From: Verrucomicrobiota bacterium
GTDB taxonomy: Bacteria > Verrucomicrobiota > Verrucomicrobiia > Chthoniobacterales > UBA10450
Length of the DNA stretch: 38,781 nt
Reading direction: 5' to 3'
NCBI GenBank assembly: GCA_003220075.1
Contig: QHRJ01000044.1
Location: forward strand, 1 to 38,781
Of this stretch, positions 1,009 through 23,654 are shown piece after piece. The position numbers and the translations under genes are program-made. Every line of letters begins with the position of its first letter. Within the stretch, counting starts at the first letter, position 1. The notes under the pieces are model-generated. The model worked only from the letters and a program-made list of their open reading frames with translations. It was not told the origin of the DNA and searched no databases.

Positions 1009-1590
1009 ATGAACGGAACTATCGATATCACAGGCACGGTTGCCGATACGCTCGGGCGCAATTGGTGGCTGTTGGCCTTGCGCGGTTTGGCTGCGGTGGT
1101 CTTCGGGGTGCTGGCGTTTGTCTGGCCCGGCGCCACTTTGATCACACTGGTCTGGCTATTCGGCGCATTCGCGCTGGTGAACGGAGTTCTATCCTTAGCA
1201 GTCGCGGCCAAAGCTCCAAAAGGCTACCCTCGGTTCGGCAGCCTAATTCTTGGTGGATTGCTTGGCATCCTCGCCGGACTGCTCGCTTTCATCATGCCCG
1301 GCATCACTGCCATCGGGCTACTCATTTTGATCGCCTGCTGGGCAATGGTGACCGGGATTTTGGAGATCGTCGCCGCGATCAAATTGCGCAAGCTAATCAA
1401 CAATGAATGGTTGCTTGTGTTGGCCGGGATTGCTTCGGTTGCTTTTGGAGTTGTGCTATTGCTTCAACCGGCTGCCGGCGCCTTGGTCTTGATTTGGTGG
1501 GTCGGAGCGTACGCACTCCTTTTCGGAATTCTGTTGGTCGTCCTCGCTTTCCGAATGCGGAGACTGGGTAAGAGGTTTGTCAGTGCCTAA
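1009..1590 (+). CDS. HdeD-like multi-TM membrane protein
   Basis: About 193 aa hydrophobic protein with repeated WWLLALRGLAAVVFGVLAFVWPG / LLGILAGLLAFIMPG segments typical of the HdeD/DUF308 family; GGAGG just upstream of ATG 1009. Confidence 0.8.
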   Translation: MNGTIDITGTVADTLGRNWWLLALRGLAAVVFGVLAFVWPGATLITLVWLFGAFALVNGVLSLAVAAKAPKGYPRFGSLILGGLLGILAGLLAFIMPGITAIGLLILIACWAMVTGILEIVAAIKLRKLINNEWLLVLAGIASVAFGVVLLLQPAAGALVLIWWVGAYALLFGILLVVLAFRMRRLGKRFVSA

Positions 1591-2387
1591 ATGAGACGGA
1601 AGTCGTGCCAGATCCCCATCGAGCACAGGCGAACATAAAGATCGGAGAAGCCGACCCAGAACAGACTCATCCATGCCCAAAGCATGTGGCGGCGGTTGAG
1701 ACAAGTGACGCAGCGATAAGCCTGGTAGCAAGCCGGCGCGCGTGAAAGCTGGTCGCGAAATCCACCAATCAAATGCCGGAGCGAATGGCAGCCAAAGGTA
1801 TAACCGCCAAGTAAAACGACGTTAATAGCCAAAACGATTGTACCGAGGCCAACACCAAAGGAAGTTTTACCGGCCGGATCGATAAACCAGAGCGCCTTCC
1901 AAACGTCGATCGTCAGAATGATGATGAAGACGAGCGCGAGATAAAGAAAGTAGCGATGGACGTTCTGCATGATAAGCGGAAAGGAACGTTCGCCTAAATA
2001 AGTCTTGCGTGGCTCGCCTACGGTACAGGCCGGTGGGTCGGCCCAGAAGGCTTTGTAGTAGGCGCCCCTATAATAATAGCAGGTGAGCCGAAACCCACCC
2101 GGCGCCCACAAAATCAAGAGCGCGGGCGAGAATAAAAGCCAGCCCGGCCACCACCTCGGTTTTGGCCCAAACCAGCTATGGGGCGAATCGCCAAAGATTT
2201 CCGGCGAATAAAATGGCGAGATGTAGTTGCCAAAAAAATAATGAGCTCCTTGGAATGCCGCCCAGATCGAATAAACAATGAATGCGCCTAGGCCAAGAAA
2301 CACCAGCAACGGCTGCGTCCACCAGACATCGGCGCGCATCGTTTCGCCAAAGGCGCGTCGCGGCAATTCGGTGGAAACAGTGGACAT
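1587..2387 (-). CDS. Succinate dehydrogenase membrane anchor of the large (~270 aa) type seen in actinobacterial Sdh1 operons
   Basis: Multi-TM protein MSTVSTELPRRAFGETMRADVWWTQPLLVFLGLGAFIVYSIWAAFQG...FGCHSLRHLIGG; lies upstream of an sdhA on the same strand. Start chosen at the internal Met (2387). Confidence 0.7.
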   Translation of the reverse strand: MSTVSTELPRRAFGETMRADVWWTQPLLVFLGLGAFIVYSIWAAFQGAHYFFGNYISPFYSPEIFGDSPHSWFGPKPRWWPGWLLFSPALLILWAPGGFRLTCYYYRGAYYKAFWADPPACTVGEPRKTYLGERSFPLIMQNVHRYFLYLALVFIIILTIDVWKALWFIDPAGKTSFGVGLGTIVLAINVVLLGGYTFGCHSLRHLIGGFRDQLSRAPACYQAYRCVTCLNRRHMLWAWMSLFWVGFSDLYVRLCSMGIWHDFRLI

Positions 2388-2472
2388 GACCTGGGGATTA
2401 TGACATGAGCCGCAACGCAGGCAATGGAACACACTGCAAGCCGGTGCGCACAGCCCCGAATGCCTCCGTTTA

Positions 2473-2588
2473 CAGCGGAGTAGAACTCCGCTGGGCGCAC
2501 AGACTAGGAAGTCTGTGTTCCCCGCGCCAATGCAGGCAACGGAACACAGGCCGTCAGCCTGTGCGCCCAGCGGACATTTTGTCCGCTG
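2473..2588. repeat. REPIN-like inverted pair of double-hairpin REP units (plus a degraded third unit near 2410-2454)
   Basis: Unit (-) 2473-2521 and unit (+) 2541-2588 share GGAACACAG...CTGTGCGCCCAGCGGA...TCCGCTG, with two hairpins each. Confidence 0.8.
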
Positions 2589-2643
2589 CCTCTGCGCGAT
2601 CTTGATTGAACGCTAAATTAAAAAAGACAACTGTATTGCCTTC

Positions 2644-3339
2644 GTGACTGCCTTCTCCGCGTTTTATCGCTCCTCCATCGGCAAGAAAATGATCGTCGCG
2701 CTCACCGGCGTGATTCTGATGTTGTTCGTCATTGGACACCTGCTGGGCAACCTGCAAATTTTTCTTGGGCCGCGCTGGGTTAACGATTACGCGCAACATC
2801 TGCGCGACCTCGGCCCGCTCCTTTGGGCGGTGCGGATTACGTTGCTGATTGCAGTTTTTCTCCACATTTATTTTACGGTCAGTCTCGCGCTCGATAACCG
2901 GCGTGCCCGCCCGCAACGCTACCAAAAACGGGATTACATCAAGGCAAGTTACGCTTCTCGCCACATGGTGGTGAGCGGATTGGTCGTCCTCGCTTTCATC
3001 GTTTTTCATCTCCTTCATTTTACCGGCCGGAAATTCAACGCCCGTTTTCCAATGTTGAAAAATGATCCGCTCAATCATTACGACGTTTATTCGATGATGG
3101 TTTACGGATTCCAAGACGTTTACGTCTCGGCCTTTTACATTATCGGTTTGTTTTTGCTTACCCTTCATCTCACCCACGGCGCCTCGAGTTTTTTCCAATC
3201 CCTCGGCCTGAATGATAAGAAGTTGACGCCGCAACTGGCATTTGCTGCGCGCGTTTTCGCGTGGCTCCTTTTCGTTGGTTACGCCGCCATCCCGGTCGCG
3301 GTTCTGCTTGGTTTTATCCAACCGGCACAGCAATTATGA
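2644..3339 (+). CDS. sdhC: Succinate dehydrogenase cytochrome b subunit
   Basis: 231 aa, 5-TM pattern, [36 protein letters not shown] start; its stop overlaps the sdhA start. Confidence 0.9.
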
Positions 3340-5264
3340 TCGGAAAACTCGATGGTAAAATTCCGCCCGGTCCGCTCGAGCAAAAATGGCGAAACCACAA
3401 GAACAATTCGCGTCTGGTTAGCCCAAATAATCGTCGCAAATTTGAGATCATTGTGGTCGGCTCGGGACTGGCCGGGGGATCGGCTGCGGCCACCCTCGGC
3501 GAACTTGGTTATCGGGTGAAGTGTTTTTGTTATCAGGATTCGCCGCGTCGCGCCCATTCCGTTGCTGCCCAGGGCGGAATCAACGCCGCCAAAAATTATC
3601 AAAACGACGGCGATAGCGTTTTCCGGTTGTTTTACGACACGATCAAGGGCGGCGATTTCCGTTCGCGCGAGGCGAACGTTTACCGGCTGGCTGAGGTCAG
3701 CAATCTCATCATCGATCAATGCACCGAACAGGGCGTCCCGTTCGCACGCGAGTATGGCGGGCTCCTCGCCAATCGGTCCTTCGGCGGCGCCCAAGTTTCA
3801 CGGACCTTCTACGCGCGCGGCCAAACCGGCCAACAGCTTTTGCTCGGCGCTTATCAGGCGCTGTGCCGCCAAATTGCGCTCGGCACGGTGAAAATGTTTC
3901 CGCAAACCGAGATGCTCGACCTTGTTTTGGTTGACGGTCATGCCAAGGGGATCATCACCCGCAATCTGTGCACCGGCGAAATCAATGCTTTCGCCGGCGA
4001 CGCCGTAGTTCTCGCGACCGGCGGTTACGGCAATGTTTTTTTCCTTTCGACCAACGCGCGCGGTTGCAATGTCACCGCCACCTATCGCGCTTACAAACGT
4101 GGCGCGCTCTTCGGTAATCCCTGCTTCACCCAAATTCATCCCACCTGCATTCCAGTAACCGGTCAGCACCAATCAAAACTGACGCTGATGTCTGAATCGC
4201 TGCGTAACGATGGACGGGTTTGGGTGCCGAAGCGGGCGGAAGATTGTTCCAAACCCCCAAACGATATTCCGGATGCGGATCGCGATTATTATCTCGAGCG
4301 AAAATATCCAAGCTTCGGAAATCTCGCGCCCCGCGACATCGCTTCACGCGCGGCCAAGGAAGTGTGCGACGAGGGGCGTGGTGTTGGGCCGAGTGGCCGC
4401 GGAGTTTACCTCGATTTTGCCGACGCCATTTCGCGCCTAGGCGAGGATACCATTCGCGAGCGCTACGGAAATCTCTTTGATATCTACCAAAAAATTTCGG
4501 CAGAAGACGCCTACAAAACACCAATGCGGATTTATCCGGCAGTGCATTACACCATGGGCGGGTTGTGGGTTGATTACAATTTAATGAGCAACATCCCCGG
4601 TCTGCATGTTATCGGGGAAGCGAACTTTTCCGATCACGGCGCGAACCGGCTCGGAGCGAGCGCGCTCATGCAAGGTTTGGCCGATGGTTATTTTGTTTTG
4701 CCCTATACGTTGCCAAATTATCTCGCCGGACAAATCGGCAAACGGCCTTCCACTGATCATGCGGAATTCAAGCGGGTCGAATCCGAAGTTCGAGAGCGCG
4801 TGAGAAAATTGCTGGAGGTGAATGGCGATCGCACTCTCACTTTATTTCATCGTGAACTGGGTCTGTTGCTTTGGGACAAATGCGGCATGACGCGGAATGC
4901 GGCCGGTTTGCGCGAAGCGCTCGGGAAGATTCCGGAGTTGCGCGACGAATTTTGGAAAAAGGTGCGAGTCCCCGGCGAAGGCGAAAGCTACAACCAATCG
5001 CTCGAACGCGCCGGACGAATCGCTGATTTTCTCGAATTCGCCGAATTGCTGTGCATCGACGCCCTTGAGCGGGACGAATCATGCGGCGGTCATTTCCGCG
5101 AAGAACATCAGACGCCGGACGGCGAGGCCCAGCGTGACGATGAAAATTTCGCTGCCGTTTTCGCGTGGGAATTTCAGGGAAACGGAAAAGTCGAGCGTCC
5201 GAAATTGCATCGTGAACCGCTGCACTTTGAGGCGGTGCATTTGAGTCAACGGAGTTACAAATGA
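3336..5264 (+). CDS. sdhA: Succinate dehydrogenase/fumarate reductase flavoprotein subunit
   Basis: [52 protein letters not shown]...[54 protein letters not shown] overlap with sdhC (ATG 3336). Confidence 0.95.
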
Positions 5265-23493: not shown

Positions 23494-23540
23494 TTCTTGC
23501 TCGAGCGCTGGTCTTGATTTGCAGGAATAGGGTCTCCAGT

Positions 23541-23641
23541 AAGACAGGCCGTTTGCCTGTCCGGCGGTCATAGGCCGCCGCTACAGAAAACTCAACAGGC
23601 CGAACGCCTGATTGCCGGACAGGCCCAGAGGTCCGTCTTCC
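23541..23641. repeat. REPIN-like inverted pair of palindromic units
   Basis: Unit 1 AAGACAGGC-CGTTT-GCCTGTC + CGGCGG-TCATAGG-CCGCCG; unit 2 inverted: GGAAGACGGACCTCTGGGCCTGTCCGGCAATCAGGC-GTTCG-GCCTG. Confidence 0.7.
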
Positions 23642-23654
23642 TTTTCTTGCGACG

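Follow-up and report, generated by a model that had tools for sequence, protein, structure and literature searches.

The window (the whole 38,781-nucleotide stretch of DNA analyzed here) carries three units of one repeat clustered at 2426–2588, between sdhC and a divergent conserved gene. The features of this region are as follows.

1587..2387, minus strand: divergent neighbor gene for a conserved hydrophobic protein
2426..2472, plus strand: REP unit B′, degraded left half of REPIN 1, with 7 mismatches to the conserved arms
2473..2521, minus strand: REP unit A, intact right half of REPIN 1, 49 nt (covariance model, 66.8 bits; fold z = −4.5)
2522..2540, no strand: junction between two tandem REPIN copies (from sequence)
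2541..2588, plus strand: REP unit B, left half of REPIN 2, its partner lost, 48 nt (covariance model, 67.8 bits; fold z = −5.4)
2589..2643, plus strand: leader of sdhC, outside the REPIN array (from cross-congener comparison)
2644..3339, plus strand: sdhC, succinate dehydrogenase cytochrome b558 family, downstream neighbor (TIGR02046, 202.8 bits, cut-off 96)

The divergent gene has no match in Pfam or NCBIfam, and an Rfam scan of the window returns tRNA only, with no match for the hairpins.

Each unit comprises GGAA, a first hairpin (CACAG-tip-CTGTG), CGCC and a second hairpin (CAGCGG-tip-CCGCTG), written in full as GGAACACAG-tip-CTGTGCGCC-CAGCGG-tip-CCGCTG and spanning 48 or 49 nt. Hairpin 1 combines a GG/CC clamp with an unpaired AA/CG bulge, in which A3·G25 is unpaired in 39/39 units and A4·C24 in most, a minority having an A4-T24 pair (alignment A1). 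Its tips are 3-bp stems (GCC/GGC, ACT/AGT and others), and a few types dominate: ACT/AGT, GCC/GGC, GCA/TGC and GCT/AGC. Unit A reads GGAACACAG-ACTTCCTAGT-CTGTGCGCC-CAGCGG-AGTTCTACT-CCGCTG, with tips ACT-TCCT-AGT in hairpin 1 and AGT-TCT-ACT in hairpin 2. Unit B reads GGAACACAG-GCCGTCAGC-CTGTGCGCC-CAGCGG-ACATTTTGT-CCGCTG; its hairpin 1 tip, GCC-GTC-AGC, contains one C·A mismatch and its hairpin 2 tip is ACA-TTT-TGT. Both units match the covariance model described below at E ∼1e-12 each when scored in the window, and both are much more stable than their shuffles. The double-hairpin units that the initial annotation placed in the sdh upstream region are thus present and intact. Its 2-bp GC stem for the GCCGTCAGC unit is wrong, since the tips are 3-bp stems of which the third pair is mismatched there, and its claim that the tips are complementary on both arms agrees with strong compensation between copies but not with this mismatch in unit B.

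A covariance model built from 39 ungapped units (alignment A1) finds at least 135 copies at E ≤ 0.01 in the genome of the window (G000, a 2.79-Mb MAG), 118 of them at E ≤ 1e-5; the E-values are rough, coming from a short calibration, and the copy number is a lower bound because 150 of 1462 candidates were scored. The proposal of a multi-copy REPIN-type element is therefore borne out: of the two outcomes that the initial annotation named as refuting it, a lack of more copies and stem mutations left uncompensated between copies, clearly neither is seen. The exact hairpin 1 pattern has 33 matches in this genome and 0 for a reversed-pattern control, so the recurrence is not due to chance. The copies group into 78 clusters, dispersed and mostly intergenic, the majority not within a long open frame. 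Adjacent pairs in G000 (n = 57) are overwhelmingly “+−” (52, with 4 “−+” and 1 “++”), as are those in G088, a genome of another genus (33/33). The normal form is a REPIN, two inverted units with hairpin 1 outermost, and the spacer between the halves is 5–42 nt in most G000 pairs.

The inverted pairing put forward in the initial annotation consequently describes the family but not the two intact window units, which face apart in a tail-out (−+) arrangement and therefore do not constitute one REPIN. Two other loci in G000, C13 and C265, each consist of a full tandem duplication of the REPIN, and the window array is most plausibly an eroded version of the same, a truncated tandem array of the form B-A-B. 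The degraded third unit that had also been noted, with a duplicated flank, begins at 2426: hairpin 1 of B′ is still recognizable (GGAACACACTGCAAGCCGGTGCGC), hairpin 2 is gone, and the unit is better preserved at the orthologous site of the sister species G004 (GGAACACAGGTTATCAGCCTGCGCGCTCAGCGGACA...). Positions 2526–2540 of the junction resemble the flank preceding 2426, and the flanks before 2426 and 2541 are identical at 13/17 positions outside GGAACACA; the second flank copy was, however, not found at the orthologous site in G004, where the flank differs, or in G009.

A second, diverged REPIN-like inverted pair lies at 23538–23645 of the window (GGAAGACGGACC..CTGTCCGG and GTAAGACAGGCC..CTGTCCGG), in the gap where an aldehyde-dehydrogenase-like gene and a hydrolase-like gene (both identified by eye) run toward each other; its covariance-model matches are weak, at 19.4 and 14.5 bits. 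Its GGAAGAC pattern has 1 exact match elsewhere, so we claim no second family.

As in the REPINs described previously (PMC3116915), the main unit is an inverted REP doublet, with tandem clusters, singlets as decay products and an association with RAYTs; compensatory changes between copies were noted there too. Here, in contrast, each half is a double hairpin of ∼48 nt, the start is GGAA rather than GTAG/GTGG, and the halves of a REPIN never carry identical inner tips. The E. coli GTAG REPs and BIMEs Y, Z1 and Z2 (PMC8266576, PMC3733652) likewise have a tetranucleotide 5′ of an imperfect palindrome, a conserved AA mismatch bulge and inverted pairs of unlike halves, heterodimers being noted there as unexplained. 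The imperfect palindrome with its AA mismatch bulge is present in our family, but the bulge partner is CG, not GC, and lies at the stem base. The units also differ in having two hairpins each and many compensated tip types, and in beginning with GGAA; no GTAG occurs upstream, and position −1 shows only a mild preference for C. No target-site duplication, as DDE-type MITEs would leave, was seen in the occupied/unoccupied comparisons, which are few and diverged, and no excision product was observed.

The halves of a REPIN are less alike than random pairing would make them. Across 45 REPINs in G000, the half-to-half likeness is 110 for hairpin 1 tips (155 ± 10.6 under random pairing) and 78 for hairpin 2 tips (124 ± 12), an unlikeness matched by 0/5000 random pairings. 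Across 33 REPINs in G088, the inner hairpin gives 59 against 104 ± 10 (0/5000), and the outer hairpin 113 against 121, which is not significant. Identical inner tips occur in 0/78 REPINs from the two genomes (expectation for G000 by itself, 7.9), and in both genomes the half-to-half combinations are varied. In silico, homotypic REPINs have a DNA fold of −70 kcal/mol, compared with −38 kcal/mol for natural ones. The likeliest reason for unlike inner tips is avoidance of a long central palindrome or stable cruciform, which the fold energies fit without proving why; shared descent of both halves could contribute. Avoidance of long palindromes has been suggested for heterodimers (PMC3733652), and the never-matching inner tips offer a clean, replicated instance of the heterodimer preference called unexplained there.

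The compared genomes are draft assemblies, mostly MAGs. At E ≤ 1e-5, the covariance model finds 106 copies in G004, 100 in G007, 82 in G009, 68 in G002, 28 in G003, 27 in G010, 24 in G008, 4 in G001, 1 in G005 and 0 in G006, all of the window's genus. At the same threshold, G088 (genus g6) has at least 150 copies and three tested congeners of it (G015, G027 and G033) have 0 each. Exact matches are concentrated in the window's genus. In a scan of named genomes, 60/65 match stretches fall in Verrucomicrobia MAGs (AV114, AV12, AV26, AV101, AV28 and AV80); the remaining 5 are single matches in unrelated bacteria, with ∼7 expected by chance (18 fixed bases in 257 Gb). A soil origin of the host is suggested by sample names of the type “14_0919_09_20cm”.

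Occupied and empty sites, which the initial annotation proposed to compare, are found in relatives. G004 has the same B-A-B array at the sdh locus as G000; G009 keeps the outer units and has lost the central one, with unrelated DNA between, and unit B is orthologous in both. The more distant congeners G005, G010 and G006 are without the array. The carA-carB spacer is likewise occupied in G000 and unoccupied in G009 (L218), L237 and L239, whereas a further candidate for an empty site, L029 compared with G007, was chosen by length and proved on alignment to hold a half-unit relic. The array lies outside a ∼55-nt block before sdhC (GATTGAACGC..AAATAAAAA..GTATT..CGTGAC) that is kept in most congeners whether the insert is present or absent; nothing therefore ties the REPIN to sdh regulation, and it probably has no regulatory role there. 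Two other sites differ between species. The REPIN at L075 (C269 of G000) is inverted relative to that at the same site in G004 (L158), as if flipped by recombination between the halves. The site at L008 (C77 of G000) carries REPINs whose tips and spacer vary by species (L159, L191), which we read as local turnover or re-insertion.

Among copies, 98% of stem cells are paired (in units selected with the tips left free), and two-sided compensatory changes occur at 10/19 stem pairs. Doubly changed stem cells number 90, compared with 29 expected from shuffles (0/500 shuffles reach this value), and pairing falls to 28%–42% in slid-structure controls. Between paralogous copies, 56% of stem differences are compensated, and 37%–43% are so between paralogs that differ at just one or two stem pairs. 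Orthologous units at the same site behave differently: the 35 stem-pair differences among them comprise 33 one-sided changes, 2 uncompensated double changes and 0 compensated ones. This comparison covers 23 units from a list picked by hand, and leaves out C77 and C269, where relatives carry a different or inverted REPIN; adding C77 would add compensated differences, read as turnover. The contrast suggests that structure is under selection in the mobile phase, and pairing seems to be needed for spreading rather than for residence. The earlier conclusion of selection for structure thus stands between paralogs and fails at the sdh locus itself. This separates two questions that are usually merged, in that the structural constraint falls on the mobile pool and not on resident copies.

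Very probably, the array is what is left, in place and decaying, of a non-autonomous mobile element: a double-hairpin REPIN family with a putative GGAA tag that belongs to a Verrucomicrobiota genus, probably of soil, and is spread by a RAYT. In this model, the RAYT, a Y1 HUH transposase, would recognize and cleave single-stranded folded units through the putative GGAA tag, the AA/CG internal bulge and the stem, and would thereby spread REPINs. Because it would require the folded hairpin and no particular tip sequence, tips could diversify yet stay complementary in the replicating pool, and an inserted copy, freed from the pairing constraint, would decay.

An alternative is that the element is old and symmetric, with tip classes that correspond to a small number of fixed subfamilies; the covariation would then record several ancestral double changes and not a continuing constraint. 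The dominance of few tip types fits such a history, which we nonetheless regard as unlikely: rarer, independent double changes are found in the lower stem (CAGCGC..GCGCTG, AAGCGG..CCGCTT and CAACGG..CCGTTG), the combinations of halves are varied, and ancestral double changes would still require pairing to have been kept. Compensation might also arise without selection. Quasi-palindrome correction, in which template switching within a hairpin at replication copies a mutation from one arm to the other, is a general mechanism at imperfect palindromes and yields complementary tip changes; it should affect resident copies too, yet none of their 35 differences is compensated, and the AA/CG bulge of hairpin 1 stays unpaired in most copies, which makes this account improbable. 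Least probable is a host-functional RNA, with the hairpins acting as terminator, mRNA stabilizer or riboregulator of sdh or its neighbor and the compensation reflecting selection on the transcript: although the RNA folds are stable, the array is retained at an orthologous site in three species and REPs can influence transcripts in other bacteria (PMC3733652), the orthologous copies drift one-sidedly and uncompensated, G000 has a broken left half and G009 no central unit, the array is missing from three congeners at a greater distance though most congeners share the sdhC leader block, and the same element, which has no Rfam match, occurs in unrelated contexts, genes included.

The initial annotation had suggested looking for a RAYT gene. 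G000 has ten Y1_Tnp matches above the Pfam cut-off, one of which, at C318:3926–4483, is flanked by two family REPINs (3759–3890 and 4500–4631). The resulting 873-bp REPIN-RAYT-REPIN module lies wholly in frame within a 539-aa mqnA reading frame (L102). The RAYT has the motifs MPNHVH and CRDYIARNP, matches PF01797 (Y1_Tnp) with 34.5 bits (cut-off 23) and NF047646 (REP_Tyr_transpos) with 76.6 bits (E = 1.7e-21, just under the cut-off of 80), and finds no match in the PDB by phmmer. RAYTs of 91% identity, flanked by the same REPIN family, occupy the same mqnA site in G002 and G004 (L103, L104); in G004 the second REPIN is eroded, and beyond the RAYT the reading frame is no longer joined to the remainder of mqnA. 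The loop is uninserted in G009, and short REP-like relics mark the site in G008, G003 and G010. The RAYT is under purifying selection, with dN/dS of 0.07–0.11, similar to mqnA itself.

In G088, a related RAYT lies in frame in carB between two family REPINs (53–71 bits) and groups with the mqnA RAYTs at modest support (93/69). This is a second, phylogenetically separate RAYT-REPIN association, in a genome with many copies whose sampled congeners have none, so that RAYT and REPIN load co-occur in two genera. By association, the mqnA-type RAYT is likely the cognate transposase, which would be carried as a REPIN-RAYT-REPIN module in mqnA, or in carB in the other genus, and would stay open and conserved along with its host gene. 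Counting against this, G007 and G009, with 100 and 82 copies, did not yield an mqnA-type RAYT; mqnA of G007 is cut by a contig end.

Nesting in housekeeping genes extends beyond these two cases. One CarB loop, 21 aa in its uninserted form, holds in-frame RAYTs in no fewer than 14 species whose sequences were read directly: G000, G003, G005, G007, G008, G009 and G010 in the window's genus, and G013, G019, G028, G031, G033, G034 and G088 in other genera of the family. A 1380-aa frame suggests a CarB insertion in G045, of another family, as well. The in-frame loci are the following.

carB: L105–L110, L113, L123, L223, L225, L228, L229, L233, L241, L244
recG (six species): L116–L118, L120, L124, L125
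metH: L119
clpB: L130
alaS: L111

CarB, RecG, MetH and ClpB were identified as hosts by model, and AlaS by eye. The NCBIfam REP_Tyr_transpos match separates the two parts of the host protein in CarB, RecG and MetH; in ClpB it follows the first part, and the locus ends there. Host CarB sequences diverge by a few percent, whereas divergence among the RAYTs at the CarB site runs from 0.3 to >1 change per column. The groupings of these RAYTs cross genus boundaries: that of G009 joins G013 (97/91), and that of G007 joins one from G005 within a larger group that includes G033, G019 and G034. On the starred branches of the RAYT tree, carB and recG each need a minimum of two label changes. Different RAYTs seem to have repeatedly invaded the fixed CarB and RecG sites or taken each other's place there.

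What is unexpected in these results is that entire RAYTs are nested in frame. In the literature searched, which covered few subscription journals, we found no report of such nesting; REPs, not whole RAYTs, are reported within genes (PMC3733652), and a large RAYT survey excluded unexpectedly long fused proteins (PMC6006769). TIRtrons (TIRYTs), known in Acidobacteria and with moderately abundant TIR families (PMC3733652), similarly place a RAYT-like gene between inverted repeats built of double palindromes, which are also found as dimers at other genomic positions; their TIR consensus GGGGWSAS is, however, absent from our unit consensus, and here the whole module is in frame within a host gene. 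Protein genes of Opitutus terrae (intragenic REPs) and Rickettsia (palindromic elements; PMC3733652) are known to contain in-frame palindromic repeats, whose position is in some cases shared between related species, but these are repeats only, whereas here a complete transposase gene with REPINs lies inside essential enzymes. TnpAREP subclass 2.4 (PMC6006769) shares the NH[IFV]H motif, the YIxxNP tyrosine motif (YIxNNP there) and a tolerance of REPs in frame; there the REPs lie inside the tnpAREP gene, and here tnpAREP lies inside housekeeping genes. Inteins too are in-frame passengers that carry a DNA-processing domain and occupy a conserved position in an essential enzyme, but the passenger here is flanked by REPINs or related repeats.

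There is, in our estimate, an about even chance that REPIN-RAYT modules in this Verrucomicrobiota order are in-frame passengers in permissive loops of CarB, RecG, MqnA, MetH, ClpB and AlaS, translated with the host protein, moving whole between sites and replacing one another at the same site. Residence in an essential gene would then both protect and express the transposase, which for MqnA and CarB may be translated as part of the host protein, an intein-like HUH lifestyle without known protein splicing. Such a scheme supplies a RAYT-linked model for in-frame palindromic inserts such as the Opitutus intragenic REPs and, by analogy, the Rickettsia palindromic elements. The units themselves have 4.88 six-frame open frames each, compared with 3.80 in pairing-preserving shuffles, a stop avoidance that is suggestive only because the units share ancestry.

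Repeats without a RAYT also occur in CarB. A lone hairpin 1 palindrome of GGAACACAG type is in frame at the CarB site (RNTDCKSV) of G015 (L231), a genome with no full family copies. A second in-frame repeat insertion is found at another fixed CarB position, before PILIDRFLEDAMEVDVDC, in L123, L105, L107, L108 and L109; it is absent in G010 and G005, and its repeat type varies by species.
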